This document shows positions 4,541 through 59,700 of a stretch of DNA of 64,000 nt, piece after piece (within the stretch, counting starts at the first letter, position 1; every line of letters begins with the position of its first letter). The translations under genes and the position numbers were made by a program. The notes under the pieces are model-generated. The model searched no databases. It saw nothing but the letters and a program-made list of their open reading frames with translations, and was not told the origin of the DNA. This stretch comes from Diospyros lotus (lineage: Eukaryota > Streptophyta > Magnoliopsida > Ericales > Ebenaceae), in contig NC_068339.1 of the NCBI RefSeq assembly GCF_014633365.1, forward strand, positions 14,345,925-14,409,924, in the 5' to 3' direction.

Positions 4541-6685
4541 TTGTTGTTGTTCGATTACAACAATGATTTTATAGGTAAAAAATCGCCGATGGATGACTCA
4601 TGTGTAGCTTATCCGAGCGATGGGTGAGGGTTGAGCGACAACGATGGATGAGTCTCTAGGGGTGAAGCAACAACGATGGATGACCCATTCGGCGATGGGT
4701 GACCTGTTTGGAAAGAAAATCATTTAGGGGCGCGAGTAAGAATCCCCGCACGAACTCTCCAATGCTTAAAATCAGCCTCTTGTAGAAGTGAAGTACTTGA
4801 AGGCAAGAAGTGAGTACGAGTGTGAGAGTTTGCGTATTGAATGGGGGCGAAGATCCATTTATTTATATCGATGGAAGAGGCTACTAGGTGTCGGGTGACC
4901 CGATTTTCTCGACGAGTAACTTGGAGGTAGTTTTGACTGGATCTCATGGGAGTGATGGCTCGTAAATTGTAAGCGTGGGCACTAGGGTGCACCTATGGCA
5001 CCCTAGTGTAAGGGTAACTTAGGGGTGCGAGAAAGGGCACGAGCATGGGCATAGTCGCCCGGGGCTACGCTGGGCCGCATGGGATCATGAAGAGTAGTAA
5101 GGGGCACCCCCTAGTGAGGTTCACTGTAACACCCCGCCTCACTAGACGTGTCACTATAAGGCAATTTCCGGGATTTTTTTTTTTTCCAAGATAAACACGC
5201 ACGGTGTTCTAAGAACAATCTTCACATGCAGATACAAATCCCGAGAACCCCAGTCTTGCCCATTTAACTATCAAAAGCAATAATCTTAAACTAAACGAGA
5301 CATAGAATAACGCAACGGATATATTAACATCAAAATACTGTGGTTCTTACATAGTATTTCCATAACAAAATACGTAATACAGATAACCAAATGATAACAA
5401 CGTTATCGTACAACTATCCATACACTAGCTGAAATACATACTAAAACCCCAAAAAGTTACAACGAATATCAATCTATGCACCATTGACCTTCAACCGGCC
5501 ATTTCCTTGCCCTCGTAGCAGTCCCTGGCTGGAACATTGAACGTTCCAGGGGCATAACCCAGGTTAGATGATAAAACATCTAAGTGATAGCATGAAACAG
5601 TTTACATAATGCATGGAAGACATATGAGCATGGCATATAAAGACAAAACGACATGCAACACGTCTAACTTGAGAAATCTCCCTGACATACTCAACTTCCC
5701 GTGGAAAATTCATTCCACACACCGTTGGGGTTGACCTTGCCACGACATACTTAATCTCTCGAGTGCCCTACCGTGTCACTCGTTCACATGGATTAACCTT
5801 GTCCCATTCTCAAGTAGACCCCATCCCGTCCCACAAGGACCCAACATTGACACGAAAATCAATACCCCGATGATATGAAAAATCACATGCCATGCACCGA
5901 TTATTTTGCAAGTAAAATAGTTGATGCAATATACCACATGATCAATATGCAAATGATGCCATAAATAGATGAATAAATCGCATAAGCATAGCACCCCGAG
6001 TTCTGGTCTCGAGTGCCCTACCGTGTCACTCGTTCACCTGAACTCACTACACCCACACCAAGACATATCCAAAACAAGTGTAAAACTAGAGACAAACCAC
6101 TCACCTTATTCAAAAAGTCGATTTTTGCCTCGAAAAACGTGTTAAGCCTCAAAATGTGCGTCTGAATAATTTTCTGGCTTTGATATGCTCCTCCAGCCTC
6201 AAATTAATCCTCACAATTTTCTAGGATTTTTCGGAAGATTTTCCCTATTTTTCCTCATTTTCCCTATATTTCTTCCATTTTCTTCTTTTTCTTTTCTTTT
6301 TTTCTTTCATCTTCTTCCTCCAGCTTTCTTCTTCCTTGCGCCCGCCATGCGCGCACGACCAACTCCGCCCAACTGCGACACCGGGGACCCCGAGGTGAGG
6401 TTCACACAGGGGTGCAAGCACGGGTGAAGGCGTGCGCGTGGCCGCCTAAGGTTGTGTTGGGCCGCTCGGGGGCACCCTCGATGAGGGTCACCCTGGGCTG
6501 CGCGGCTGTGTGGGCTTGGGCGCTCACTGAGGAGGGCGAATGCGAGTCGGGGTGTCGTAGTGGCTGTGTTGCAGGTCGTAACCATGCATGCGGGGCTTCT
6601 GTTTGGCCATGCATGTGGTGCTCTCATTTTTTTGATTCTTTTATTTATTTTCGATAAGCCACTTCATCCATTTATTTTTGTAGGA
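4541..6685. mobile_element. 2.1-kb insertion inside the hAT transposase
   Basis: Transposase homology stops at 4540 and resumes at about 6688. The flanks are TACAT (4536-4540) and CACAT (6686-6690), compatible with a 4-5 bp target duplication. The left 580 bp holds recurring CGATGGATGA-type motifs and no gene that I recognise. The right part (from 5125) is a minus-strand LTR fragment. The ends do not show TG...CA, so the element type is uncertain. Confidence 0.5.
5125..6650 (-). repeat. Truncated long LTR fragment, family shared with 14.8-25.7 kb
   Basis: On the plus strand it begins TGTAACACCCCGCC, the inverted end of the LTR family seen at 14.8-25.7 kb. It shares the GGAACATTGAACGTTCC-like palindromic motif (about 5530; compare 22027) and the pyrimidine-rich stretch (about 6230-6340; compare 24050-24240). 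The phrase GAGTGCCCTACCGTGTCACT occurs twice, at about 5760 and 6011. The other LTR end (GGGGTATTACA) is missing, so this copy is incomplete. Confidence 0.55.
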
Positions 6686-6687
6686 CA

Positions 6688-6954
6688 CATCAAATCAAAA
6701 GAGTAGATTATTTTTCGAATGCATATATTGCTTATAGAATATTGTTCACAATTCTAATTTCAGTAGCTTTTGCAAAAAGAAGTTTTTCAAAATTGAAATT
6801 GATAAAATCATATTTGATGTCAACTACATCGCAAGAAAGATTGAATGGATTAACTATATTATTCATTGAACATGATTTATTAAATAAACTTGATTATGAA
6901 GATTTAATCAACAATTTTGCATCTCAAAAGATAAGAAAAATTGATTTTGCATAA
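6688..6954 (+). pseudogene. hAT transposase relic, C-terminal dimerisation domain
   Basis: The translation reads [16 protein letters not shown], then [19 protein letters not shown] and [17 protein letters not shown], ending [13 protein letters not shown] and a stop. This is the hAT C-terminal dimerisation signature (canonical [20 protein letters not shown]); here the hallmark AERSFS has become AKRSFS. It continues the protein broken at 4540. Removing the insertion joins the two parts, apart from a 5-nt duplication of TCAAA. Confidence 0.85.
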
Positions 6955-7499
6955 AGTTGAATATAGTTCGACACATATATGTTTGTGGAATGAAAATTTG
7001 TTTATTATTGGTGAACTTTATTTTTTTAATGCTATTAGTTTAATATTTTATTTTGTTTCCTTCTGTAGAAGAATCAAGAATGCATATATTTTTTTTTATT
7101 TACCTTCTTTGCTGAAATCGAAGTCACGAGTGGCGGGGAACTGCGCAAGGGTGGTAATCCCAAGAATGCATAGGTTTTTGCTCGGCTTGCACCGACCTTG
7201 TTAGAGTTTCAAGAAAAATTAGTTTTATTTTTCTTTATTTATTGTAGTAGATTGTTTGGCTTTTTTTGATCTCTAAGATACTATATATATTTTAGTTGAA
7301 AATTACTATCGTTAAGAGATTATCGTATTTTGTAATTGATTGAATTTTAATATTTTTTTAATTTAATGAAATGATGGAATTTTCTTGTAAAAATGTGTAT
7401 TATATATTTTGTTACAAAAAAGTTAATGCTCTTGAGAAGGCCTTAAGAAATTTTTTCGCCTAAGGCCTTCAAATTTGTTGAGCCAGCTCTGATTGTGAT

Positions 7500-12459: not shown

Positions 12460-13045
12460 CTTTTTTTTTTAATGGTTCTAACTATGGTTATAGGAAGAAA
12501 CGTATGTCTTGTTTTCTTATGCAAAACACAATCATATTGTAGTTCATTAAAAAGGAAGTTAAGCTTCCGAACATGGAGAAAATGGAGACTTGGACGGATG
12601 GGGACAAGCAAAATGTGGAGATAAATGCAATAGCCATGAATATTTTATTTTGTGCTCCATGCCCCGAGGAGTTTAATCGGGTATCTATATGCTCAACGGT
12701 CAAAGAGATTTGGGACAAATTAGAAGTCACTCATGAAAGTACTAGTTAAGTCAAGCAAATAAAGACAAATTTACTAATTCATGAGTATGAACTTTTTTCT
12801 ACGAAATCTTGGGAGCCGATTAAGGATATATTTACTAGGTTTAACTCGTTTAGAGGCTCTAGGAAAAACTTTTTCAAATAGGGAGAAAGTTAGAAAAATT
12901 CTTAGAAGTCTTCCCAAAAAATGTGATCCAAAAGTAACAGTCATTCAAGAGACTAAAGATCTAGATAACTTATCCACTGATGATTTGATTGAATCTCTCA
13001 TGACTCGTGAGATGATGATGAATAGAGAAGATAATGAGAAGAAAA
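12460..13045 (+). pseudogene. Copia gag fragment (UBN2-like), truncated
   Basis: Downstream of the primer site, frames read SNYGYRKKRMSCFL, then WTDGDKQNVEINAMAMNILF and FNRVSICSTVKEIWDKLEVT. The open stretch from 12781 includes VRKILRSLPKKCDPKVTVIQ and LSTDDLIESLMTREM. This is the N-terminal gag of SIRE-like copia elements. Stops (for example the TAA before VKQIKTN at about 12748) and a frameshift near 12830 disable it. It is cut off at 13045 by the GCGAC repeat element. Confidence 0.75.
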
Positions 13046-13046
13046 T

Positions 13047-13870
13047 ACTACAAAAAATATACTATTTAGCGATGAAATTAGCGACAGGACAAAATTCGTT
13101 GCAAAATTTTTACGACGGATTTGCGACGCATTTTTTGGTTGCTATTTTTTTTTTAATTTAGCGACGGAATTTGCGACGAGATACCTGTCATAAAAAAGGA
13201 AAAAAAGTAATTTTTAAAAAATAAAGAATTAAGCGACGAAAAATGTCTGTCGCTAAAAAATTGAACAAATAAAATAAGAATTTAAATATTTAGCAATGGA
13301 AAATGTTCGTTGTTAAAAAAAAAATAAAAAAATAAAAACATTAGCGATGGAAAACATCTGTTGCTAAAAAATGGGAAAAAATAAAATTAAACTAAAAACA
13401 TTACCAACAAAAAAGCCAGTCGCTAAAAAAAAGAAAAGAAAATTAAAAATAAAAACTTTAGTGATGGAAAATGTCCGTCGCTAAGAAATAAAAAACTAAA
13501 ATTAAAACTAAAAGCTTTATCGACGAAAAATGTCCGTCGCTAAAAAAGTAAAAAAAAATAAAATAAAAACTTAAAACATTAGCGACGAAAAAAGTCCATC
13601 GCTAAAAAATAAAAAATAAAATAAAATAAAGATTAAAAACATTAGCGACGAAAAATGTTAGTACCTAAAAAATGGAAAAAAAGAAAATTAAAAATAAAAA
13701 TTTGAGCGACAGAAAATGTTTGTCTCTTAAAAAGTAAAAAAAAAAAATTAACACTTTAGCGACAGAATAAATCCGTAACTAAAAAATTAAAAAAAATAAA
13801 TTGAAAAAATAAAAACTTTAGCTATAGAATAAATTCATCTCCAAAAAAGAAAAAAATAAATTCAACAATT
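13047..13870. repeat. CACTA-like terminus followed by an array of GCGAC palindromic repeats
   Basis: The array starts TACTACAAAAAA, one base from the common plant CACTA terminus CACTACAAAAA, exactly where the gag fragment stops. About a dozen units of roughly 60 bp follow. Each has the dyad TTAGCGACGAAAAATGTCCG then TCGCTAAAAAA, separated by A-rich spacer. Units decay toward the right end. Such subterminal palindromes are typical of transposase-binding regions in CACTA elements. No transposase and no clear opposite end were found. Confidence 0.6.
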
Positions 13871-28152: not shown

Positions 28153-28771
28153 TCAAAGTCCTTTGGTTAACGGATCAGCAACCATAACTTGAGTATTTAT
28201 GTGTTCCACAATAATATCACCTCTCTTGACCATGTCTCTGACTGAAAGATACTTGATCTCTATGTGTTTGGAACCACTAGAACTTTTATTGTTTATAGTG
28301 AAGAAAACTGCAGCACTATTGTCACAATAAATTTTGATTGGCCTTGAGATGGAATCAACAATCAAAAGCCCAGAAATGAAGTTCTTCAACCACATAGCCT
28401 GTGATCCCCCTCCGTAACATGCTACAAACTCTGCTTGCATAGTAGATGAAGCTACAAGTGTTTGTTTTGCACTTTTCCATGAAATTGCCCCACCAGCTAA
28501 CATGAAAACATATCCAGAAGTGGATTTTCTTTCATCAGGACACCCTGCAAAATCTGCATCTGTGTACCCAACCACCTCAAGGTGATCAACTTTTCTATAC
28601 ACTAGCATAAAATCCTTTGTTCTTTGCACGTATCTCATAACTTTCTTTGCCAACACCCAATGCTCAGGCCCAGGATTAGAAGAAAATCTCCCCAACACAC
28701 TAACTGCAAAAGCAATATCGGGCCTAGTACAAACTTGAGCATACATCAAGCTTCCAACAGCACTAGCATAA
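28153..28771 (-). pseudogene. Copia RT end and RNase H, separated from the rest of pol
   Basis: The frame from 28749 reads YAQVCTRPDIAFAVSVLGR, then YTDADFAGCPDERKSTSGYV, ASSTMQAEFVA and IYCDNSAAV, ending ADPLTKGL and a stop. The acidic RNase H residues (D in TDADFAG, E in AEFVA, D in CDNSA) are present. This is the C-terminus of the polyprotein whose upstream part ends at 38118. The CATAA target duplication falls inside a codon pair, and removing the nested element restores the frame across the junction. Confidence 0.92.
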
Positions 28772-30831
28772 TGGCTGCACTCTCACCCTGCAATTAAAAC
28801 ATAATAAGAACAAATCATAATAAAACTTTTATATTTTTTTTTATTTTAGTGAGAGGATTATACTCGCCAGTGTACGAGTGCAGTTGTAGTCCAAATTTAA
28901 ATTTATATTTTTTGGATGAATCCAGGTCGTCCACTGAGAGATTTATTTATGGCAAAAGAAAAAGAATGTCACACACACGCACACGCATTTGGACAAATTG
29001 GCAACAATGTTTTTTTATGAGTTTTTTTAGACAACAGATACTAGAAAATAAAGTAAGGCAGAAATTGAAATAAACATTAAACGTAAAAATATGAATTTGG
29101 ATAGTGCTTGAGTTAAGACAATTTCAATACCAACACGTTGATTCCCAAATTTTAGCATAAAAAATTAGCAACATTAATTTAATTTCAGATATGAGGGTTT
29201 GTTATTAAATGCAATTAGAGATGATGATAGTTCTAGGTTAAGCAATCCCCATACATGATATGCGAGATTCTAATTTAAGCAACCACCATAAATCCAATTG
29301 CAATTAATACACAAAACAACTAAATTAATCATCTGGGTTTAGGTATGATAGCGTTTCCAGTTCTAGTAACTCTCATACATGGCATGAAAGCTCTAAGTTA
29401 GGCTTACGCTCCAATCCAAACCTAGTGATTTTTTAATAATTAATACACACTCATACTGAAATTTAAATTAATGTTACTTATTTAAAGCGCAGCTTTTTTT
29501 GGGAATCATTGGCATTGGACACTGTCCTTGCCTTAACCCAAGATTAGATTTAACTACTCATTTTTATTTGAAAGTTAATTGACAGAAATTTAAATGATGT
29601 AATTTAAATAACAGAATTTAAATGACAAAAAATTTAAAGGCATAAACTAACCGGCCATTTAGGCGGTGGATAATTAAATGACAAGAATTAAAATTGCAGA
29701 AATTTAAAGGCATAAACTAACCGGCCATTTAGGCGGTGAATAATTAAATGACAAGAATTAAAATTGCAGAAATTTAAAGGCACAAATTAACCGGCCATTT
29801 AGGCGGTGAATAATAAAGTAATAATAAATGACATAAGAATTTAAAAGAAGAAAGAAAAAAAATAAGATTATAAGAGAAAGTACTAAAGAAAATGAGAAAG
29901 AACAAGAACAATTCTCAAAGAGAGAATTATAAGGAAACAACTAAACTTTTATTCAAGAATAATAATCACACTTACAAATGCAATCAAGTGATCTATTTAT
30001 AGGCCACAAGATGCAATACAAACCACACAATTTCAATTATTCAACTAGACATAATTATATCTAATGGGCACTCACACACATAAAGTTAAATGGATTTTAG
30101 CTATAATACACACCTAATATTAAATGGATTTTAGCTAAAATACATACCTAATAAAGCACTCATAAAGTTAAATGGATTTTAGCTATAATATCCACCTAAT
30201 AGTTAAATAGATTTTAGCTAAAAAACACACCTAATAAAGCTCTCAAATAAAAATAGATTTCTATAAATTGGTTTTTAATCTTTATTAGGATTAAAAATAA
30301 TTCTTGGGCCTTCTCCAAATAATATCTTCCATGGATTGCTCAAATTGGGCCTTAATTCTTCATGGGCTTGAATTCTTCATGGACTTTAATTTTTCATGGA
30401 CTTGATTTCTTCATAGGTTTGATTTCTTCATGGATTTGAATTCTTCATGGACTTGATTTCTTCATGGATTTGAATTCTTCATGGACTTTAAGTCTTCATG
30501 GGCTTGAATTCTTCATGCCTAAAAAAAATAAAAATAATTTAATGTTATTAATAAATTATATATTATATATATGTATTACACATGGCACATATATATATTA
30601 GATTAGATTATATATATATATATATTACATGCATGCATATAATGATGTATATGTATTATATATAATTTTATATATTATTATTATTTACTTTAGAACTTCA
30701 TTTCATTCATCTTTCAATTTAAACTTGCATATAACCATAAAATATATATTAATATCTAATTTAAACCATTTTTAAGATCAAAAGAAGGGTATAATTATAA
30801 CAAATTTTTTATAAAATTAACCACTAATCAT
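28772..30831 (-). repeat. 3' LTR of the chimeric element
   Basis: It starts TGGCTGCACTCTCACC and ends CCACTAATCA (plus strand). A minus-strand TATA box (GGCCTATAAATAG) lies near 29992-30004. It contains one more copy than the other LTR of a roughly 49-bp unit, TTAAATGGATTTTAGCTA.. (30087-30240), which explains the 49-bp length difference. It also has runs of TTCTTCATGGACTTGAA-like repeats at 30355-30515. Confidence 0.93.
29631..29818. repeat. Three tandem 70-bp repeats inside the LTR
   Basis: Units start at 29631, 29701 and 29771 with AATTTAAAGGCATAAACTAA then CCGGCCATTTAGGCGGTG. The last unit is partial. The same triplet is present in the other LTR at about 36963-37150. Confidence 0.9.
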
Positions 30832-30846
30832 ACCCCCCAACTTAAA
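30832..30846 (-). other. Polypurine tract of the chimeric element
   Basis: On the minus strand it reads TTTAAGTTGGGGGGTA immediately before the 3' LTR (TGATTAGTGG). Confidence 0.7.
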
Positions 30847-32400
30847 CATTGCTAGTCCCTTAGCAATCAGACTATACACATGCCAAGCTTTAATAACTGT
30901 ATGAATGTAAAAATTTCAAATTCGAAACCGAAATACATAAAATTGAATAAATAATTTAGCATTCTAAATCAGATTTTTGGTTAAAGGTCATATAATCTCA
31001 GGAATGGAAATTAGGATAACCAACACACAGACTTACTCCCTCGAAGTTTTGACTTCAAATCTTACTATGGATTTTTTCTCCAATAAAAAGGATTCCTCAG
31101 GTGTACACACAAGGGGGTGCACCGTTATAAGAGTAAATGCAGAACAAGTTCAAAACTCGGTGCCATCCCAAATACAAGGAACGTATTTTCATGAAAGAAC
31201 AAGGAAATTGACATAGCTTCATGATTGGAATAATGCTCTAGATGAGTAACTTCTGAATTTAAACATGATTCCCTACTCCAAACTCGAATTCTGAGATCAC
31301 ATGATTTATAGCATCAACAGGGACCAGACTGGATTGTAATGGGGCTATAAGGTTAATACGGGTTGTCAAAGAAAATGTAGAGTGTGCAAAGGGTGTGTCG
31401 GGATTTTTTTTTTTTTTTAGCATTTATTTTGAAACAGTTATGCTGAATAGCTAAGAGAATTTGCCCTTTTTTTTTTCTTTTTCTCTTTAAATATGAAAAT
31501 AGAAAGACAGATTAATTCCCAAAATCACACCAGGTTGGATAAAATTCATATGGTTATGGGTTAACCGAGAGTAACGAAAGAAATTGTACTACAAATGGCT
31601 CAAATGGGATAGCAATGGAGGTTAATTTAAAGAAAGAAAAAGGTTTAATAGGCTCAAACTGAAAGAAATTGATCCCCCTATCATGCTTCTCAGTCATCTA
31701 AGTCGAAGTTTGAAACCAGTCAAATTCATCCGCTATCATACTAGACATTCAAAGCGAATTGATATTTTGAAGCCATTGAAAAGATAAGATAAACAAGAGA
31801 GCATATTTAGAGTAAGTGTTATTTCACTCAGAATTAATGGTTATTAGGCTCAAACACTTACTTGGGTAATAGTCTCCACTTCTGTTGAGGGATCATACAA
31901 TGTATTAATCAGCTAATTACTATTACCTTTGACTTTATGACCGATAACCAATTTTTAAATTTTGAATCCCCGATGAATGCAAATTACTTATTCTAATGCA
32001 CATACGTTTTCAAATAAGAAATCAATGCATCCATGTTTCGTATTGCAAACTTAACCGGCTATCAGTGCATAACTTCAAAACTTTAGGAATAGCATTATTT
32101 AAAACCCTTTTTTTTTTTTTTTAATAAGAGCAAATAAAGATAATCAATTCACACAAGACAACAAACTAGCAATAGCAAACTCACAGTTAAATATGAACCA
32201 AATAATTCATAACTAAACCTTACACCCCCTAACTTGAATTGCAGTAATAAATTAGGGTTGTTAAGAATACCTGTAACTCCACAAGTCCATAGATTTGCTG
32301 TGAACTGCTAAAACTTAAACAACAAATGAGCACACCATATATATATATATTTATATTTTCACACCAAAATAAAAATTTCATGCAAGTCATAAGATAAGCA
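30847..32400. other. Non-coding 3' internal region of the chimeric element
   Basis: A long stretch without a convincing ORF. It has a poly-T run near 31409-31422 and T-rich stretches at 31468 and 32107-32122. A long non-coding region before the 3' LTR is usual for Athila/Tat-type elements. Confidence 0.5.
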
Positions 32401-32402
32401 AA

Positions 32403-32589
32403 ATGCATCTCAAGAGTACAAAAAGTACTCCTTACTCAGCCACCTTATCAAAGACTTTGCTAACAGCATTCCACAGTTTTGTTTTTTTTTGTTTTTTTTT
32501 TTTAAAGAACACAACCAAGAAAAATCCTGTAAGGTGTACAATAACTAGATGCGTCTCAAGAGTACAAAAAGTACTCCTTACTCAGCCAT
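32403..32589. repeat. Two copies of a ~41-bp segment also found in the virus-like ORF
   Basis: ATGCATCTCAAGAGTACAAA (32403-32443) and ATGCGTCTCAAGAGTACAAA (32549-32589) both continue AAGTACTCCTTACTCAGCCA. A third, longer version (33585-33636) lies inside the virus-like ORF. The two copies lie just downstream of the LOG stop codon in transcript sense. Confidence 0.75.
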
Positions 32590-32607
32590 CTTAATAAAGA
32601 GCATTTC

Positions 32608-33267
32608 TCACAGTGATAAATCTAAATTAATCGGACCCCTTTGGCGCTTGTTACTAATTGTCTTAGACCAGTCTATCCGAGGCTCATGAGGATCGTACTG
32701 TGGAACATAAGCATGTAATTTCTCTAGCAGCTTATCAATGGTGGATGCAGAAATGAGAATTTTTCTTGCTGAACGAGAAATGAACTGTTGGTCCACAGCC
32801 TGATCAAAAAAAGAGAGTAACCCATCGAAAAAATGGTTAACATTTAAAAGTCAAATGGGTTTGGTATGGAGATTACTCTTGGCCCAGGAGATTATACAAA
32901 AGATTTCTTCAAGTGTTCCAAAACCTCCTGGTAAAGCAATGAAGGCATCTGACTGATAAATCTTACAAGCCATGCGCTTAGACATAGAAGTCGTTTCTAT
33001 AAGTTGACCGCGTGTAATCCCGGAAATATGTGGTTCAGCTAAAGGGATTGGCATTACACCTACCACAGATGAATTTTTAAGATGTACAGCTTGTGAAACA
33101 TAACCATTCAATCCACGACTTCCCCCTCCATATACCAAATTAATTTTTTTCTCTCCTAATTTTTTACCAAGTTCGCTCGCTGCAAGTGCGTAACAAATAT
33201 CGCTCCCAAGTTGAGAGCCACAAAGTACACATATGGTATTGATTCGACGAACTAACTGGCCTTCCAT
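32608..33267 (-). pseudogene. Intronless retrocopy of a LOG cytokinin-activating gene, one nonsense codon
   Basis: LOG enzymes hydrolyse cytokinin riboside 5'-monophosphates to free cytokinin bases in the cytosol. The frame from ATG 33267 runs 219 codons to a stop at 32608, the normal LOG length, with one internal TGA at codon 139 (32853-32851) in place of the Gly after KPI. Visible: GGGSRGLNG (48-56; family GGGSVGLMG), R98, and PGGFGTLEE (113-121) with Glu121. The residue after R98 is Met where plant LOGs usually have Lys. Known plant LOG genes contain several introns; here none interrupts the frame, which points to an mRNA-derived copy. It lies in the same direction as the element. A GTGAGC...TTTTCAG stretch at about 33390-33290 just upstream may be a retained or relic 5' UTR intron. 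Identification is firm; function as encoded is doubtful. Confidence 0.88.
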
Positions 33268-33434
33268 GTTTGTTCCTTTTGTATATCCTGAAAAGAAGTT
33301 TGGCGATCAAAAGTAGCTATACAACAATTCAACAAGAAATAAATACAAACAAAAATCATGCGTATGTATAAGTAGTTGTGATTGTGGCTCACATCTTCCT
33401 CTGGTTTTACGTCTAGAAACGGCTTAAACACTTT

Positions 33435-33980
33435 CTATGAAGCGGGGATAAGCTTCCCATCCAATTTTCTTATAGATTGGCAAACAGGGTCGTTTTTAGT
33501 CAGATTCCCAAGACTATAGCGTTGGTGATCACTTCTGAACTGGGTCCATAAAGCAAGAAGTTCTCTTTGCACTATTCCACATGGATGCGTCTCAAGAGTC
33601 AATCGGATATCATCCAAAGACTCCTTACTCAGTCCATCCTTTATGAAACTAATTTTATCTTCTCAATTTATGGACGTAAACCCCACAGATTTGCATCGTG
33701 TGTTACAGGTCCATCGAGCACATTTGTAACAACCATTCACTCTTTTCGCTCTTCTTTTCTTCGCAAAACTACTCTTGCCTAGGCCTGGAAAATGCTTAAA
33801 ACTAGGTGAAGTTTCACCAGCTAATCGAACTTTTGCTTCGATTAGCCAACGAATATCTTTAGGGATGTTATTACGCATCAACAGCCAAAGTCTTTCACAC
33901 CTAGCAGCATAATTTTTTTTCAAATCATTCTGCGGGAGAGATGGATAGTACTTGTGAATTTTTGAGAGATAAAGATCCAT
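33435..33980 (-). pseudogene. Virus-like basic cysteine-cluster ORF (carlavirus-type nucleic-acid-binding protein relic)
   Basis: The frame starts at ATG 33980 and runs 105 codons to a TGA at 33665-33663. It then stays open in the same frame to 33435 (181 sense positions plus one internal stop). Residues 65-97 hold PGLGKSSF, a basic run (K74-R80) and a cysteine cluster C84-x2-C87-x4-C92-x3-C96. A basic stretch directly before a small zinc-finger-like cluster, in a protein of about this size, is the layout of the nucleic-acid-binding (silencing-suppressor) proteins of carlaviruses in Betaflexiviridae. The cluster spacing is shorter than usual and the last 75 residues are unrecognised. It could instead be an unknown host or element protein. 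No other viral gene is nearby. Confidence 0.45.
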
Positions 33981-33984
33981 TTTT

Positions 33985-34445
33985 TTTTTTAAAAAAAAAA
34001 TTATACTAAGAAGAAAGTAAAGAACTATAAACTTTACAAAAGGGATGAGAGTACCTGATCGCAGAATAATACAAAGGAGAGAAGATTGAGCTAAAGAGGG
34101 GTGACTTGCCTCATACAGATATGGAGTCTCTTATAGAGCAATGGGCATCACTATTCTACACTCGACTCGAGGCATGCCATAATTGCACCGTCAGACTTGA
34201 CGTCGTTTAGCGTCTCATTTTTCAACATTTGGCAGTGTGCCTTTTTTTTTTTTCAACGCTCGGCGCCTCTGTTTTCAACATTTTGCAGTGTGCCTTCTTT
34301 CTTTATAGGGCAGTGTGATTGCACTGCCCAAGAAAAGATGGCTACCACCAGCGTCAATTCTGTCTCTCTCAATTCAATTTTTTTTAATTAATTTTGTTTT
34401 AATTTTTGTTTTTTTTTTGTTTTAGGTAAAATTTTGTAGACATCT
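33985..34445. other. Non-coding spacer of the chimeric element
   Basis: It holds an A/T homopolymer tract (33980-34002) and a near-duplicate phrase TTCAACATTTGGCAGTGTGC (34221) / TTCAACATTTTGCAGTGTGC (34273). No open frame is supported. Confidence 0.5.
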
Positions 34446-34461
34446 TACCCCCCAACTTAAA
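34446..34461 (-). other. Second polypurine-tract-like motif
   Basis: On the minus strand it reads TTTAAGTTGGGGGGTA, the same core as the tract next to the 3' LTR at 30832. It is preceded by GAGGACAATGTGCAA, a phrase usually seen near the coding end of Athila/Tat elements. Confidence 0.65.
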
Positions 34462-34628
34462 TTGCACATTGTCCTCAATTGGCAATAAAAGGATAGAAGA
34501 TAGGCATACCTGGCGGTCTTCAATACATAAACTCATATGGAGAAATTTTATTTAGACTGCACATAGAGAAACACTAGTTAAGTAATGCAGAAAAGGAACA
34601 ACTTATATGTATATATAAAATTATTTTA

Positions 34629-35363
34629 TTATATTTTTATTTTTATTTTTTTTAAATTTTTTTTTCTTTTCTTCCAATTAAGGATCAAATGAGTTATTGC
34701 CCACCTAATCGTATAATATCTCCCATTCACTACACCACTTTTAAAGTTATTTTCAAAATTATATAAATTGATTTTTCTCATGAATGCACATATATATTTT
34801 GAAAATATATCGTCCGGAGGTGTTGGTTTTATTATATTCGCGTATGGCATATTAATTTGCACAAACATCTCACACGTGTTTGGTTTAATTTGATCCTCAA
34901 TAATATCGACTAACCTAAAAGATAGAAATTGAGGGGTAAATGTGGATAAACTTATGATTTTTTCATATTTTGGCTCTCGAATTTTATCCTCTTCTTCCTC
35001 CCAGGTTTCTTCTTTTCTTACATCATTTTGGTCTTTTTCTTCCTCCAAGGCTTCATTGACATCTACCTCACTGTGATCAACCACTCTCTCTTCTTGCACC
35101 AAAGGGTGTACTGTCCTAGGGGCATCAAGTTTCTCAATTATTTCTCCATTCCTTAAGACAGTCACTCCTATGTCCTGCTCCTGACTTTCACTTTTGATGA
35201 TGGGTTTTATTAATGGGATTTGGAGTGAGTTGGGATGGACAGGCTCTGACATGCTCAAAGTCTGTGTTAGCTGTGTCAATTGGTTCCTAATGTCCTCTGT
35301 AACTCTAATGGTATGTTCTTGACATTTGGACATTTGTGTAAAAATTTCCATTTGGCCTTGCAT
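34629..35363 (-). pseudogene. Gag/protease-region remnant of an Athila/Tat-like element
   Basis: A 244-codon frame. It shows an amphipathic N-terminus (TEDIRNQLTQLTQTL), VTVLRNGEIIEK (compare the LRSGK phrase of Athila/Tat gag-pol), a long acidic stretch rich in E and D (residues about 90-135), then CEMFVQINMPYANI (compare the INIPF phrase). The last 30 residues run into poly-K, a sign that the original frame is lost. No protease catalytic triad is seen. It may still give a Gag-like protein, but not an enzyme. Confidence 0.55.
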
Positions 35364-35482
35364 AAATAGATTGAAGGTATCTTCTAATGAACTCCCATGA
35401 GGGGGTTGATATGCATCGAATGTAGACCCTTCATTCGTTTGAAATGATTGAAGCTGGGAAAGGAAGTGCTCATGTGGTTGGG

Positions 35483-35809
35483 CTACAAAATCATTTTCCT
35501 ATGAGAAATTTGGATGAAAGTGTGAATTAAGGTGATATGCATCAAAGTCCGAATGGTAGTTTTCCTCATGGTTCTGGTAATACATTCCCTCATAGTTGTG
35601 TGTGTGTGTGTGTAACTGGATTGACCATACAATACCTCCTTAAAAGCAGGTATTATAGGGCAGTCATCCGTTAAATGAGCTGAAGTCTCACACACAGCAC
35701 ACCAAACCTCAATTTCATGGTAAGTGGGTAACAAATGGGTAGTGTCTGGTTGCAAATCAAAAGTGGTTTGCCTAAGAGGGTATAGATAATCTTTAAGAGG
35801 TCTAGACAA
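35483..35809 (-). pseudogene. Zinc-knuckle gag fragment
   Basis: The frame includes WCAVCETSAHLTDDCPIIPA, a CCHC knuckle (C-x2-C-x4-H-x4-C), followed by KEVLYGQSS, as in plant gypsy gag. The rest (YTHTHTT...) is low complexity arising from a TG/CA microsatellite at 35600-35618. It is separated from the 35363 ORF by stops. Confidence 0.6.
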
Positions 35810-36083
35810 ATCAGATTCAAAATGATAATTTTCATCATGATAAGTATCTTAAGCAGACAGATTGTAGTAATTTTGAGACATGAGTGTAAAGTTGACAATT
35901 CAATTGCAGGTAAAGACTCAGAATGATATGAAAATACTGTTTCAAAATGCTACCTGATCTCAGTCTCATATACAATGCACAAACAAAAATAAAGTAAAAG
36001 AGAAATAGAGTTACCGATTTTATCAAGAGATGCTTATTCTTTTATTTATTTTTTATTTTTTTCTTTTTGTTTTTGCCTTAATC

Positions 36084-36101
36084 TCCCCGGCAACGGCGCC
36101 A
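36084..36101 (-). other. Primer binding site, tRNA-Asp type
   Basis: On the minus strand it reads TGGCGCCGTTGCCGGGGA, complementary to the 3' end of plant tRNA-Asp(GUC). It lies 5 nt inside the 5' LTR (36107). Confidence 0.92.
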
Positions 36102-36106
36102 AAATT

Positions 36107-38117
36107 TGGCTGCACTCTCACCCTGCAATTAAAACATAATAAGAACAAATCATAATAAAACTTTTATATTTTTTTTTATTTTAGTGAGAGGTTTATACTC
36201 GCCAGTATACAAGTGCAGTTGTAGTCCAAATTTAAATTTATATTTTCTGGATGAATCCAGGTCGTCCACTGAGAGATTTATTTATGGCAAAAGAAAAAGA
36301 ATGTCACACACACGCACACGCATTTGGACAAATTGGCAACAAGGTTTTTTTATGAGTTTTTTTAGACAACAGATACTAGAAAATAAAGTAAGGCAGAAAT
36401 TGAAATAAACATTAAACATAAAAATATGAATTTGGATAGTGCTTGAGTTAAGACAATTTCAGTACCAACCCGTTGATTCCCAAATTTTAGCATAAAAAAT
36501 TAGCAACATTAATTTAATTTCAGATATGAGGGTTTGTTATTAAATGCAATTAGAGATGATGATAGTTCTAGGTTAAGCAATCCTCATACATGATATGCGA
36601 GATTCTAATTTAAGCAACCACCATAAATCCAATTGCAATTAATACACAAAACAACTAAATTAATCATCTGGGTTTAGGTATGATAGCGTTTCCAGTTCTA
36701 GTAACTCTCATACATGGCATGAAAGCTCTAAGTTAGGCTTACGCTCCAATCCAAATCTAGTGATTTTTTAATAATTAATACACACTCATACTGAAATTTA
36801 AATTAATATTACTTATTTAAAGCGCAGCTTTCTTTGGGAATCATTGGCATTGGACACTGTCCTTGCCTTAACCCAAGATTAGATTTAACTACTCATTTTT
36901 ATTTGAAAGTTAATTGACAGAAATTTAAATGACGTAATTTAAATAACAGAATTTAAATGACAAGAAATTTAAAGGCATAAACTAACCGGCCATTTAGGCG
37001 GTGGATAATTAAATGACAAGAATTAAAATTGCAGAAATTTAAAGGCATAAACTAACCGGCCATTTAGGCGGTGAATAATTAAATGACAAGAATTAAAATT
37101 ACAAAAATTTAAAGGCACAAATTAACCGGCCATTTAGGCGGTGAATAATAAAGTAATAATAAATGACATAAGAATTTAAAAGAAGAAAGAAAAAAAATAA
37201 GATTATAAGAGAAAGTACTAAAGAAAATGAGAAAGAACAAGAACAATTCTCAAAGAGAGAATTATAAGGAAACAACTAAACTTTTATTCAAGAATAATAA
37301 TCACACTTACAAATGCAATCAAGTGATCTATTTATAGGCCACAAGATGCAATACAAACCACACAATTTCAATTATTCAACTAGACATAATTATATCTAAT
37401 GGGCACTCACACACTTAAAGTTAAATGGATTTTAGTTATAATACATACCTAATAAAGCACTCATAAAGTTAAATGGATTTTAGCTATAATATCCACCTAA
37501 TAGTTAAATGGATTTTAGCTAAAAAACACACCTAATAAAGCTCTCAAATAAAAATAGATTTCTATAAATTGGTTTTTAATCTTTATTAGGATTAAAAATA
37601 ATCCTTGGGCCTTCTCCAAATAATATCTTCCATGGGTTGCTCAAATTGGGCCTTAATTCTTCATGGGCTTGAATTCTTCATGGACTTTAATTTTTCATGG
37701 GCTTGATTTCTTCATAAGTTTGATTTCTTCATGGATTTGAATTCTTCATGGACTTGATTTCTTCATGGATTTGAATTCTTCATGGACTTTAAGTCTTCAT
37801 GGGCTTGAATTCTTCATGCCTAAAAAAAATAAAAATAATTTAATGTTATTAATAAATTATATATTATATATATGTATTACACATGGCACATATATATATT
37901 AGATTATATTATATATATATATATTACATGCATGCATATAATGATGTATATGTATTATATATTATTATTATTTACTTTAGAACTTCATTTCATTCATCTT
38001 TCAATTTAAACTTGCATATAACCATAAAATATATATTAATATCTAATTTAAACCATTTTTAAGATCAAAAGAAGGGTATAATTATAACAAATTTTTTATA
38101 AAATTAACCACTAATCA
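36107..38117 (-). repeat. 5' LTR of the chimeric element
   Basis: It has the same TGGCTGCACT...CACTAATCA ends as the 3' LTR, with scattered single-base differences and one missing 49-bp unit. A minus-strand TATA box (GGCCTATAAATAG) lies near 37327-37340. It drives transcription leftward through gag, the virus-like ORF and LOG. Confidence 0.93.
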
Positions 38118-40575
38118 CATAAGGCACATTTTCCATCTGTTGTTGCTCTATTATATTTTTTGGATAATTTTTCTTACTAGGCAATTCTTCCTTAGCTATA
38201 GGCACTTCCCCAGCTCTACAATTTTGCATATTAAAGCGATTGAGAACACGATCTATATATGATCTCTGAGAGAGTCCCAACAAGCCTCGAGTCCTGTCCC
38301 TATTAATTTCAATACCAAGAACAAATGATGCTTCACCAAAATCTTTCATGTCAAAAGTCTTGGAAAGCATTTGCTTAGTATCATGAAGCAGGCTTAAATC
38401 ATTACTCGCAAGGAGAATATCATCAACATATAGCACAAGAAGAACAAATCTGCTCCCACTGATCTTGAGATATATACATTGGTCTATCTTATTTTCAGTA
38501 AATCCAAATGAAGTAATTACCTCATCAAACTTCAAATACCATTGTCGAAAGGCTTGTTTTAAACCATAAATGGATTTCTTTAACCTGCATACCAAATGTT
38601 CTTTGCCATTTTCTTTGAAGCCTTCATGTTGTTGCATATATACTTCTTCATGCAAGTGTCCATTTAGAAATGTTGTTTTAACATCCATCTGATGAAGTTC
38701 AAGATCAAAGTGTGCCACTAGTGCCATAATGATTCTGAAAGAATCTTTTGAGGAAACAGGAGAAAACGTTTCATTATAATCAACTCCTTCTTTCTGAGTA
38801 AAGCCTTTAGCCACTAATCTCGCCTTGTACCTTTCAATATTGCCTTTTGAGTCTTTCTTAGTTTTGAACACCCATTTGCAACTTATAGGCTTAACTCGTT
38901 TAGGCTGTTCAACTAGTTCCCACACATCGTTGTGTGCCATAGATTTCATTTCATCCTCCATTGCTTCCAACCATTTATCAGAACAAGTACTTGAAACAGC
39001 TTGGTTATATGAGATCGGATCTATAACATGACTAACATCGTAGTCATTTTCACCAAGGTATACCACATAATCATCTGATATAGCAGATCTTCTTTCTCTC
39101 TGAAGGCGCCTATCAGGAATTTCAGGATGTGAAATGTGTATTGGAACATCTTCATGTTGGGATACTTCTTCTGTTTGATCTAGTTCAAACACCATCCTTT
39201 CATGTACAACTGGTACTGGCATTATCATAATTTCCTCTTCCACATTAACATCCCTTACATGAGAACAAGAGCATTCACTTGAATCATTCTCCAAAAATTT
39301 TGCAGTGATAGAATCCACAATCATTGTGCCTCGACTAGGGCAATAAAATCTGTATCCCTTAGAATTGTCAGGATAACCAACAAAGAAACAACGTGTAGTC
39401 TTAGGATCCAATTTACTCTCAGAAGGATTGTAGATTCTTACCTCAGTAGGACAACCCCAAACTCGAAAATGATTTAGGCTCTGCTTACGACCAACCCAAA
39501 GTTCAAAAGGAGTCAGAGGCACAGATTTACTGGGAACTCTATTCAAGATGTACATTGCAGTCTTTATGGCTTCACCCCAAAGAGACATGGATAGATTACA
39601 CCTACTCATTATCGTCCTCATCATATCTTTTAGTGTGCGATTTCTCCTTTCACCTACTCCATTTTGATATGGTGTGCCAGGCATGGTATATTGAGCAACT
39701 ATCCCACAATCTTGTAGATACATGGCAAACGGACCCATACATTGTCCACTAGGTCCATGCCTACCATAGTACTCTCCACCTCTATCAGATCTCACAACCT
39801 TTATACTTTTCTCTCGCTGCTTCTCCACCTCAGTTTTGAAAATCTTAAACTTTTCGAGTGCTTGAGATTTATCCGCAATAAGATATACATATCCATAACG
39901 AGAAAAGTCATCAATAAAGGTGAGAAAATATTTGTTCCCACACAATGTAGAGACATAAGGTCCACTTATATCAGTGTGGATAATTTCCAGAAGCTCATTA
40001 CTACGAGTTGCACCTCTTTTCTTGGTTTTGGTGAGCTTTCCCTTTATGCAATCAACGCAAGTACCAAAATCATTGAAGTCAACAGTAGGCAAAATACCAT
40101 TTTTAACAAGTCTCTCCATCCTTTCTTTGGAAATATGACCCAACCGTTTATGCCATAAGTTTGAAGAGTTTTCTTTAATCAAGGTTCTTTTAACACCAAC
40201 ATTCTCAACATTCAAGGAAGTAGCCATGGAAGAAAAATTTAACTTATATAACCCATCACACAAGAGTGCAGTGCCAACAATAACTGAATTAAAAATCAAA
40301 TTTAAACTTCCATTGCCAATACCAAAATGATATCCCGCACAATCCATCTTAGAAATGGAGATCAAATTCTGCCTAAAGGACGGTACAAAAGCGACATCAT
40401 TCAAAACAAGGGTATATCCAGTTTCTAATCTAAACTCTACTGCTCCTATATCTTTAACTTGTACTCGAATGCCATTTCCAACCACCAGCGTTCTCTCATG
40501 ATCATTTGGCTTTCGCTTGCTCTTGAACCCCTGCAAGGTATTGGCCACATGAATAGTTGCCCCGGAATCAAACCA
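38118..40575 (-). pseudogene. Copia polyprotein: protease, integrase, reverse transcriptase (truncated by the nested element)
   Basis: The frame is open from the gag stop at 40576 to the insertion point. The protease motif WFDSGAT comes directly after the stop. Numbering from the first Met (40548): integrase zinc-binding H133/H138/C164/C167, catalytic D193, D255 and E300 (SDRGGEY; QNGVGE), then RT with MDVKTTFLNG (D622) and YVDD (707-710). Beyond residue about 806 the frame reads into the nested LTR. The RNase H part is at 28771-28153. The upstream frame is continuous with gag except for one TAG. Confidence 0.93.
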
Positions 40576-41465
40576 CTAAGAATTCAATAGAACATCTATT
40601 AAATTGGATTCAAAACAAACAAAAGCAAGTGGTTTACCTCCACTTTTGTTCTTTGCCAACCAGTTCTTATATTTGTGACAATCAAATTTCTTGTGACCCT
40701 TTTTCTTACAGGACCAGCAATTGATCTCTTTCTTGATAGCAGGTTTGGGGCCATTGCTCTTCTGATTTTTGATCTTGTTGCCACCTTTGTTATTTCTGCG
40801 ATAATTGTGGCTTGAGGAATGCCCTTTCATGTTTGGTTGACTCACAAAATTCACACTACCACCAAAACCCCTAAGGATCCTCTTTTCTTCTTGGTCACAG
40901 ATAGAGATTAGTTCATTGGTATTCCACTTATCCTTCTGAGTATTATAAGAAGTCTTTAATTGGTCAAATTGTGAAGGCAAGGAGTTAAGAGCATGATGAA
41001 CAAGAAATGATTCAGTAATGGGGATCTCAAGCTCGGTCAGTCTAGCAGTTATATCAACCATCTTCATAATATATTCTCTCACACCACCCACCCCATCATA
41101 CTTTATTCCTGTCAACCTATCCATAAGTTCTCCAGCATCTGCTTTTTCAGACGATTTGTATTTTTCTACTATATCATCAAAGAATCTCTTAGCATTTTCT
41201 GTCTTAGATATGGCACCAATGAGAGTATGGGAGATAGACCTTTTCATTATCATCAAACTTAAACGATTCGCCCCTCCCTATTTTTCATACCTAGCTTTCT
41301 CTTCAATGGAACTCCTCACAGTTGGCTTAGGAGGCTCATTCTCATGTAAGGCCATGTCAAGATCCATCAAACCCAGTTGAATTTCAATATCTTCTTTCCA
41401 TCTCTTAAAATTGGTTCCAGTCAGAGTCTCAATGGTCGAAGTCTGATTACCGACATTGAAAGCGC
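40576..41465 (-). pseudogene. Copia gag (UBN2 type) with zinc knuckle, two in-frame stops
   Basis: The frame shows TLTGTNFKRWKEDIEIQL near 41420, then an in-frame TAG at 41280-41278, then the open block from 41256 (AKRFFDDIVEKY, HHALNSLPSQFDQLKTSYN) and a CCHC knuckle CWSCKKKGHKKFDC. It ends with TAG at 40578-40576, after which the same frame continues as protease. A pyrimidine tract with TATATACAG at about 41484-41466 may be a splice acceptor for an upstream leader exon; no in-frame ATG precedes the visible gag start. Confidence 0.88.
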
Positions 41466-56748: not shown

Positions 56749-59700
56749 CCTTGGTAGCAATTCGTCAAATTATTCGCGTATTATACGCGAATTATTTCGT
56801 ATTTTTATTAAAAGTATTATACTTGCGTATTTTTAAAACATTCAGAATAATTCACGTATTTTAAATCTAAAAAATATAAAACGTGTATTAGTCGAATTTT
56901 TAAAAAAATCAACTAAAAAATTTGTTGCGTGCTCCCAGACCATGTGTAGAGCAAATTATGATGTCTGATTAGAAATGTTTTTTAATTATTACTATAGCTA
57001 ATGATGGCTCATGATGACCCATTATTTAATTATTTCCAACTTCCCACTTTCCACTCAACTCTCATTTTGTTTTTATTAAATATTAATATTCAATTCCATC
57101 CCCATACATATCTCTCATCTCTCTATCATCTATCTAATAAACTACTCATTTACCACATTTCTCTTCGGAATGTTTGTTTTTTAGTTCTCAACTTCTCATC
57201 AAGTTCAATAACTTCAACTCATTTTTATCTCTTTGTTAGTTGCTTCGTTTTATTCCTTGTTTTGTAGTCTTCTCAACATTTTTTGAAGTATTTTTTATAT
57301 GCATGGAAGATTATTTAGGGCATATTTTGTTACATTTTTTAAATTAATTTTTAGTTTTAAAATCAAACAATGTAAAATTATAGATTTGAAGAACTGATTT
57401 TTGAAATTATTTCTAAAATTAAAATTTAAAAATACTGAGTTTTAACAAACAACAAAAAATTTACAGAAAAAAAAGTAATAGAAAAGAATGTATATACACA
57501 CACATGAGCAGTTATAAAAATTACAAATTTGTTTTTAAAAAATAATAAAAAAAAAATAAACTGAAAACACACAAATTATAATCAGCAACCAATAACCATT
57601 ATGATTTTTGTTTTCCTTACTTTCCATTTCACACAGTTTCTAAATATAGCCTCAACTAACATCAATTATTTGTCTAAATTAAGATTTCAATTCTCAACCA
57701 CCATACATGCACTATGTTCGTTAACTTCAACATAGCTTTATTAATTTATTTTGGAACTTGAATATATTGTTTGTTTGTGGCATTTGAATTTTTTCATGTT
57801 ATCTTGCGTTAATGTAGGTTAGTTGAATCTATTAATTTTTTAATTATATAAGTTTTAATAAATTTATTTCTACTTATACATGTTAATCTTTTGTTAATTA
57901 ATTGTTATGCATATTAGTAAATAAAATTAAACTATATGTAAGAAATGAGACAAAGAAACAAATTTTGAGAATATGCTGATAATTTAGATTGATGATTCAA
58001 ATGTAAATTTTGTCAAAAAGAGTGTCATGGTGATATGTCTAGAGTAAAATCGCATTTATCTGGGTAAACAGGATGTGATGTTATGGTTTGTCCAAGTGTG
58101 CCAGATGAGGTACAAGCTCTAATTGTTATTGCTATCGGATGTAATAGTAAAAAGATAAAATTATCTATTGAAAATGTCGGAACTAGTCAAAAAACTTTGT
58201 CAAGTTTACAACAAACTTCAATACCTACCATATACAAAAAAAACGATAAGAATATGGTAGACATGAAAATAGCTCAACATTTTTTTTTGAATAATATTCC
58301 TTTCAATGTTATTCAAACACCTGATTTTATTAAGATGATTAAGGTTGTTTCTGACTTTGGTATTGGATATACGTTACCAAGTTATTCTACTCTAAGAACT
58401 AAATTAGTGATGAATAACAAAACAATGGTTGAACATTATGTAGCTAAAGTGAAGGAATCGTGGAGTTTATCAGGATACACATTAATGTCTGATATTTGGA
58501 CAGACATGAAAGGTCACTCATTTATCAATGTGGTTATTTATTCTCTGAAATGACCTGTCTTTTAAAGTCTTTTGAAAGGTCGAGTCATAGAAAGAGTGAT
58601 TTTTTTCTTAGAGATCTACTTGTATCTATCATTGAGGATATTGAACCTAAGAATGTAGTTCAAATTATCACAGACAATACTTCAAATTATGGACTTGTTG
58701 GTGATATGATAATAGAAAGTTATCATCACATATACAAAACAAAGTGTGCAACCCATGAAATTCAATTACTTTTCAAATCTATTTATAATCAGATTCAATG
58801 GATAAGTAAGGTATTTGATAAGGCAAAGAAGATTGTGGATTATATGTACAAACATACCATTGTCTTAAGTTTAATGAGGGAACATACACACAAGGATTTG
58901 AAAAGGCATTACAAAATTAGGTTTGCTTCTCATTTTCTAATGCTTCAATTTATTTTAGAAGCTGAAAATGACTTGAGAAACTTAATTACATCAGCTACTT
59001 GGAGAAATTTGTCATATAGCAAAAGAGCAATGACACAAAATGTGAAGGACATAATTCAAGGTACTGAATTTTGAAAAGAAGGAAAATAGGTTATATTTGC
59101 CTTAGAGTCTATTGTTAAAATATTGCGATTAGTTGATAGAGATAGATCAACTGCTGGCTACATTTATGATGCAATAGAGAGGGCAAGAACTGCCATCAAG
59201 AAACAATGTGAAACTAATCATATCAAATACATGCAACTATGGGACTTATTTGAGACAAGACGAGAGGAGAATATATTTCATGAGATACATGCAGTTGCAG
59301 CTTACCTTAATCCATCTTTAATGTATGACATGAAAATAAGGTATGACCAATCTAAAATAAGAGATGGTTTATTATTTGTGGGAGAAAAATTGGTTGACAT
59401 TACAGAGAGAAATGAGTTTGCTGACCAATTATTGGTTTATGATGGGAGACATCCAAATATGTTTAATTTTCTTTCAATGGCACAAATGAGATTTTCTCAT
59501 CCTCATAAGTAATGTTACTTTTGTTTAACTTATTTTAATATATATTTTTATTAAGTTATTTATCCTACAGAAAGCTAACTTGTTGATCATTATGTGTAGG
59601 AGTGTGGTGGGAAGCAAATGAAGGCTTAATTCCTATTCTATAAAAGGTTGCTATTCGTATATTGAGCCAACCATGTAGTGCTTCTGCATGTGAACATAAT

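Follow-up and report, generated by a model that had tools for sequence, protein, structure and literature searches.

How does a long terminal repeat (LTR) retrotransposon without polymerase genes come to carry one gene resembling a plant cytokinin-activating enzyme and another resembling a plant virus protein? The question is raised by an element at positions 28772–38117 (minus-strand sense) of a 64,000-nucleotide stretch of the Diospyros lotus genome, here called the window (NCBI RefSeq assembly GCF_014633365.1, contig NC_068339.1, positions 14,345,925 to 14,409,924 of the forward strand). A preliminary description of this DNA proposed that pol had been replaced by a retrocopy of a LONELY GUY (LOG) gene and a small, basic cysteine-cluster open reading frame (ORF) of viral type. 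Here we find both genes behind integrase in pol-bearing relatives and as a recurrent pair in the D. lotus genome. We consider it fairly probable that the element belongs to a high-copy Ty3/gypsy family, probably of the Athila lineage, and has lost its pol, and that in this family a cassette of the virus-type gene (NABP) and LOG, lying between integrase and the 3′ LTR, likely serves as a host-manipulation module. What plant LTR elements gain from extra ORFs has long been debated, because such ORFs rarely resemble anything known. Both ORFs described here resemble known proteins, recur together and look constrained between subfamilies, and the cassette yields predictions of nucleic-acid binding, silencing suppression, TOPLESS binding and altered nucleotide chemistry. 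The NABP match also ties a plant RNA-virus gene family to a retrotransposon lineage.

A two-gene cassette downstream of integrase

The cassette genes of the window element are as follows.

33438..33980, minus strand: NABP-like zinc-finger gene, open over 105 amino acids (aa; 33663–33980), with one premature stop and an in-frame remainder (33438–33662)
32611..33267, minus strand: LOG-like gene, open over 138 aa (32851–33267), with one premature stop and an in-frame remainder

Read in its own sense, the element comprises the 5′ LTR, a primer binding site (PBS), a gag remnant, a polypurine tract (PPT)-like tract, NABP, LOG, a non-coding stretch, the PPT and the 3′ LTR. Between its LTRs there is no ORF for reverse transcriptase (RT), RNase H or integrase, as had been noted before, and this absence, together with a pol-bearing relative whose LTR is 90.6% identical, marks the element as non-autonomous. 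In that relative (L060/L061), pol is spread over more than one frame. Another, L059, has a 1760-codon open gag-pol frame encoding gag, protease, RT, one RNase H and integrase, which is followed by NABP, LOG, PPT and LTR. The order in the pol-bearing relatives is gag-pol, PPT-like tract, NABP, LOG, PPT and LTR, with the cassette downstream of integrase. Because these relatives carry NABP and LOG behind integrase, we read the window element as a pol deletion that retained the cassette; most likely, it arose by internal deletion of pol from a gag-pol–NABP–LOG element, and the idea that the cargo took the place of pol falls. L059 DNA is 89% identical to the window element in NABP, 90% in LOG and 78% in the 3′ region; the genes are thus 89–90% identical, against 72–78% for the upstream and 3′ regions.

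Copies elsewhere in the D. lotus genome (a 630-Mb assembly of 43 contigs) dispel the suspicion of a one-off association or an assembly join, as the pair recurs at near-constant spacing. For 52 of the best 150 of 941 NABP candidates, a LOG is found among the best 150 of 1045 LOG candidates, and the start-to-start spacing is 713 bp in 49 cases, 714 bp in 2 and 723 bp in 1. Of 26 distinct elements (28 loci taken; the window element included), 25 have LOG after NABP, L005 being the one without LOG; so do all 20 copies drawn at random from the 92 NABP places that have no LOG among the best 150 of 1045. Integrase is found at most 1.7 kb upstream in 13 of these 20 random copies, and 43 of 86 scored integrase matches (86 of 13,933 candidates) have a listed NABP or LOG no more than 4.5 kb downstream. 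Twenty loci found via LOG extend less than 0.9 kb upstream of NABP, too short to show integrase, and do not enter any statement on pol made here. Five longer stretches, picked from the tops of the lists, have the pol-less layout of the window, with the 5′ LTR of one (L054) matched in part. The NABP–LOG pair is a standard cassette in this genome and not a private capture.

The initial proposal was a recent capture, in which template switching would have brought a LOG transcript of the host, together with a viral gene, into the element in place of pol. An intronless LOG ORF, the absence of pol and the orientation of both ORFs in element sense agree with it, but the cassette lies behind integrase in pol-bearing relatives, family-wide, and the window LOG, around 50% identical to plant LOGs, falls inside a clade of element LOGs. 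We accord recent capture next to no probability; it is refuted for the window copy and could hold only for the ancestral acquisition.

Outside this genome, L001 (3330 bp), which is probably from another plant, encodes integrase and NABP and has a PPT-like tract, with no LOG on its 3330 bp. This Ty3/gypsy DNA is filed in a Candidatus Nomurabacteria genome bin, likely as contamination. Both gene families are present in Populus x canadensis and Xanthoceras. When the lengths of protein-hit contigs were compared, 3 of 45 NABP contigs were equal in length to one of 35 LOG contigs (0.675 expected from shifted lengths); seven earlier NABP/LOG length matches include short lengths and are possibly due to chance. 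The case for NABP–LOG pairing in other species is weak.

The pol of L059, scanned in three pieces, has one RNase H, no second RNase H and no chromodomain. A second RNase H (aRH) marks Tat elements (PMC6317226), so its absence excludes Tat for L059 and by itself does not prove Athila. We place the family, probably, in the Athila lineage of Ty3/gypsy.

A LOG clade with an altered site and a new tail

The 138-aa ORF (32851–33267, minus strand) matches the Lysine_decarbox domain (PF03641, 2.3e-18), its in-frame remainder matches the rest of that domain (2.7e-7), and the PGGxGTxxE motif is present, all of which identify a LOG family member. The first reading of this gene stands in part: the ORF is of LOG type and in element sense, but it is broken by a stop and, given its position within the element-LOG clade, is not a recent retrocopy of a host mRNA. 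Its closest match is ‘LOGL10’ of D. lotus (95%), and 4 of 20 sampled own-genome LOG copies match the D. lotus LOGL10 protein at 100% after rounding. The ‘LOGL10’ annotations P0121 (Diospyros lotus), P0275 (Populus trichocarpa) and P0305 (Populus nigra) carry the name of a cytokinin enzyme but are probably transposon genes. A PDB sequence search with LOG returned ordinary LOGs, and the LOG alignment retrieved 24 distant relatives (23–39% identity) from viral contigs.

In a tree of 54 hand-chosen rows, the element LOGs group as a single clade, separate from the plant LOGs (support of 100/100); a larger tree of 98 rows, comprising the window piece and the 97 of 120 hits that are at least 195 aa in length, likewise separates the clade of the window LOG from the ordinary LOGs of plants. 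Relatives that rank high belong to Populus, Paulownia, Reevesia, Diplodiscus, Pterospermum and Xanthoceras, and one Pterospermum cluster has 327 members. The first branch of the element-LOG clade is Xanthoceras P0240, with the remainder grouped at 99/98; P0240 keeps the active-site lysine and has a basic tail without LxLxL.

The lysine beside the catalytic arginine (Lys100 in CgLOG numbering, mapped through the MHxRK and PGG motifs and not by alignment with CgLOG) is K in 59 of 59 canonical LOGs and in 1 of 123 element LOGs, a set that omits the long Xanthoceras proteins P0241–P0243 and P0302; the other 122 have I, M, L or T. In CgLOG, Lys100 belongs to the AMP/adenine-site residues, and alanine mutants are almost inactive, S19A excepted (PMC4979012). 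A basic C-terminal cluster occurs in 113 of 121 element LOGs and 1 of 59 canonical LOGs, and LxLxL within the last eight residues in 106 of 121 and 0 of 59, respectively. As the set of 121 came partly from a profile that held the tail, the fairer count comes from the element LOGs, each at least 212 aa long, that a query lacking the C terminus retrieved: 26 of 31 have the LxLxL tail, against 0 of 59 canonical LOGs. In the own genome, INLDLSL is the C terminus of all 23 LOG copies that measure 657 bp.

The tail resembles an EAR-type repressor motif and is predicted to recruit TOPLESS; LxLxL is known in this role from other proteins. The pathogen effectors HaRxL21 and Jsi1, which reportedly recruit TOPLESS through EAR motifs, likewise place an LxLxL-type motif in the protein of a parasitic agent, whereas that of the element LOG is predicted only and sits on a transposon-encoded protein. 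Element LOGs have the PF03641 fold family and, mostly, the Arg99/Glu122/PGGxGT core in common with plant LOG enzymes; they differ in forming a separate clade, in having lost Lys100 and in having gained a basic LxLxL C terminus. The element LOG could nevertheless be an ordinary cytokinin-activating enzyme, with more active cytokinin favouring the dividing, meristematic cells that pass the element on. Most of the 123 element LOGs do keep the positions that this would call for (Arg99 in 117, Glu121 in 118, Glu122 in 119 and Thr119 in 123), but the near-universal replacement of Lys100 and the basic LxLxL tail, which canonical LOGs lack, argue otherwise, and we regard ordinary enzyme function as possible but doubtful.

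A virus-type zinc-finger gene

The cysteine-cluster ORF (33663–33980, minus strand) corresponds to the first 105 codons of a family whose long members are mostly 181–182 aa in length, so the element-sense ORF first described is real but truncated. It matches Viral_NABP (PF05515) at E = 1.8e-6, over the curated cut-off, and Carla_C4 (PF01623) slightly under the curated cut-off of that model. Six other members were scored as well: five exceed the cut-off of PF05515 and four that of PF01623, each of the six exceeding one or both. When 5.8 billion proteins were searched, there were 176 homologues at E ≤ 1e-3, the best 120 of which were used, and all 150 scored places in the own genome, the best of 941 candidates, reached E < 1e-64; because of both results, the ORF is more than a chance reading frame. 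Identity to the window ORF is 51–91% across 23 relatives, and four cysteines (window positions 84, 87, 92 and 96) are invariant in 24 aligned sequences. Sources named among the matches listed are Orobanche, Striga, Populus, Xanthoceras and Acer. A PDB sequence search with NABP gave no match at E ≤ 5, and scans of virus contigs with the NABP protein, the NABP alignment and a conserved 30-base pattern gave none.

With the viral NABP and cysteine-rich proteins of carlaviruses and their relatives (PF05515 and PF01623), the element protein has in common a basic stretch followed by a cysteine cluster; it differs from the carlavirus type in its length of 181–182 aa, in being encoded by a retrotransposon and in having no virus genome context. 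The Pfam matches lend support to the idea that NABP, like a virus-type protein, may act as a silencing suppressor. The same matches could indicate an endogenous viral element, a fragment of an integrated RNA virus that landed in the LTR element. Against this, the interior ORFs tested included no further recognisable flexivirus gene, and a NABP of 181–182 aa lies behind a gypsy integrase in L001 and is paired with LOG in the window genome. We judge such an insertion very improbable for the window, although NABP may have an ancient virus origin, or the transfer may have run in the opposite direction.

Possible constraint on the cassette

Between L059 and L060, the latter not picked by protein score, dN/dS is 0.29 for LOG and 0.28 for NABP, and comparison of the L059 LOG with 16 copies picked by NABP only (4 of 20, frameshifted, were left out) gives 0.27–0.39. 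Values of 0.24–0.25, from copies picked by protein score, were discounted because such picking biases the sample.

Several observations weigh against a maintained host-manipulation module. Taken at face value, the figures suggest constraint between subfamilies (dN/dS of 0.2–0.4), not among recent copies. Pairwise dN/dS among the 16 recent LOG copies is 0.54; their variable sites fall 36, 23 and 25 on codon positions 1, 2 and 3, with no third-position excess, and 7 of the 16 have a stop. These recent copies look near neutral, close to decay after insertion. NABP differences between L059 and L060 fall 16, 8 and 19 on the three codon positions. The pol-bearing relatives are themselves damaged, with one frameshift in each cassette gene of L059 and two stops in the LOG of L060. 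The NABP–LOG spacer is as conserved between L059 and the window (90.4%) as the genes are, and the pair is not obligatory, because L001 and L005 have NABP without LOG. The own-genome lists over-represent intact copies because places were chosen by protein score. The 85 further LOGs assigned to the element set are represented in the 54-row tree by five. The NABP structure model is of low confidence (mean pLDDT of 65) and gave no viral structure match at E ≤ 0.001, with 2 of 10 non-significant matches named as viral nucleic-acid-binding or cysteine-rich proteins. The Athila assignment, a probable one, draws on the missing second RNase H and the PBS. Finally, the anatomy is read from the sequence, and from it we infer each functional step of the mechanism proposed below.

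In the extreme, the cassette would be a neutral passenger, spread solely with its elements, as the stops and frameshifts in many copies and the pattern among recent LOG copies would have it. Opposed to this are the lower dN/dS between subfamilies, the excess of L059–window identity in the genes over that in the flanking regions (although the spacer shares it) and the conservation of NABP across its 23 relatives. We consider the neutral passenger unlikely, and retain the host-manipulation module.

Proposed mechanism

The window cassette is broken because each gene has one stop; through intact copies, the element would likely influence gene silencing and gene expression in its host. Pol-less copies would be mobilised in trans by pol-bearing relatives, and transcription of the cassette would be driven by the TATA box conserved ahead of NABP, with NABP as the first ORF of the transcript and LOG expressed perhaps via splicing. 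NABP, as its viral relatives, would bind nucleic acid and dampen RNA silencing. The LOG protein would enter the nucleus and recruit a TOPLESS-type co-repressor through its EAR-type tail, its chemistry presumably altered from ordinary cytokinin activation.

Tentatively, and with less assurance than the module itself, these elements can be combined into one picture. A eudicot-wide retrotransposon lineage would carry a two-protein host-control module, in which NABP is a silencing suppressor of a kind shared with plant RNA viruses and LOG is a nuclear, nucleotide-sensing recruiter of TOPLESS. A hairpin present in three copies, one of them in the NABP gene, would be the target of NABP, and the NABPs of viruses and transposons would testify to genes having passed between RNA viruses and retrotransposons.

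Relation to described elements

Steinbauerova et al. (2011) reportedly found two Athila-like elements with similarity to LOGL4. The capture was at first thought to be undescribed, which is correct only in part. A LOG/YgdH extra ORF, that is, a LOG-family ORF inside a plant LTR retrotransposon as here, has already been reported from Citrus and Populus (PMC9289625, which cites Steinbauerova et al.); the available part of that paper does not mention NABP, an EAR-type tail, an active-site change or a cassette. Extra ORFs (eORF/aORF) of Ogre, Tat and Athila elements are on the sense strand between pol and the 3′ LTR, mostly without known function (PMC6317226 and PMC7264820), and match the cassette of the window family in position and sense. 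The survey in PMC6317226 counted eORFs of at least 250 codons, so the element ORFs of 182 and 219 aa fall below its threshold, and the domains to which it gives most prominence are different ones (plant mobile domain, Transposase_28 and Athila ORF-1). Open-licence papers yielded no account of a retrotransposon with an NABP-type gene and none of a LOG clade with an EAR-type tail. LOG in plant LTR elements is thus known in outline; for the NABP gene and the EAR-type LOG clade, which we take as new, no report was found.

Element structure, hairpins and surroundings

The remaining features of the element are listed in order of position.

28767..28771: target-site duplication CATAA, left
28772..30830, minus strand: LTR, 3′ in element sense, 2059 bp
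30831..30846, minus strand: PPT adjoining the 3′ LTR
30847..32610, minus strand: 3′ non-coding region, 87–95% identical in the matched parts of five other own-genome copies
32396..32460, minus strand: predicted hairpin copy 1 of the 3′ region, CTGAGTAAGGAGTAC-TTTTT-GTACTCTTGAGA, by itself not significant (z about −1.2)
32542..32606, minus strand: predicted hairpin copy 2 of the 3′ region, by itself not significant (z about −1.2)
33581..33650, minus strand: RNA hairpin predicted within the NABP gene, with a predicted counterpart in L001
34130..34139, minus strand: TATA-box-like sequence, putative internal promoter, conserved in an alignment of the window and two pol-bearing relatives
34446..34461, minus strand: second PPT-like tract, where the former gag-pol region ended
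34629..35848, minus strand: gag remnant, zinc-knuckle part in two frames (comparison with relatives)
36085..36101, minus strand: PBS, motif TGGCGCCGTTGCCGGGG, read 36101 to 36085
36107..38117, minus strand: LTR, 5′ in element sense, 2011 bp
38118..38122: target-site duplication CATAA, right

The LTRs with their perfect CATAA duplication, the PBS and the gag remnant bear out the structure first described, and together with the PPT make this an LTR retrotransposon. Insertion was fairly recent, because the LTRs differ at just 24 of 2011 aligned bases (K2P of 0.012; 48 gap columns in addition). The PBS presumably pairs with tRNA-Asp. The gag remnant had no significant Pfam match (best E of 0.12), nor did that of another copy at 0.01; it has the stretch CxVCETxxHxTxDCPxIPAFKEVLYGQ in common with the gag of a pol-bearing relative. 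The non-coding stretch between the LOG ORF and the PPT is 1.8 kb long. At L055, positions 3829–7149 hold an incomplete LTR copy that adjoins a complete copy and is followed by another 3′ region, perhaps in tandem arrangement.

The hairpin in the NABP gene has a z of −2.1 in the window and −3.4 in L001. The two hairpins of the 3′ region have the same flanks and stem with a different loop, and are present in both subfamilies; Rfam gave no match in the element at E ≤ 0.1. When L009, a copy of the window family, is compared with L001, identical amino acids have identical codons in 35 of 70 cases over the first 107 codons and in 46 of 54 over the rest (p = 5e-5), and the two sequences stay almost the same for about 60 bases after the NABP stop. 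The NABP hairpin lies within this conserved stretch. This post-stop similarity, at 33370–33437 (minus strand) of the window and 2348–2412 of L001, is unlike the region upstream of NABP. We would guess that the hairpin is a packaging signal or a target of NABP. The TATA-box-like sequence may serve as an internal promoter.

The element sits within a Ty1/copia pol, likewise on the minus strand: its insertion split the copia gag and pol (Retrotran_gag_2, integrase and RVT_2) into 28153–28782 and 38104–41277. Elsewhere in the window are a further copia-type gag fragment (Retrotran_gag_2, 12778–13161, plus strand), DUF659 in two overlapping frames (58068–59074, plus strand), which we take to be a domain of hAT-type transposons, and a fragment of DUF4371 (3184–3573, plus strand), presumably transposase-related.

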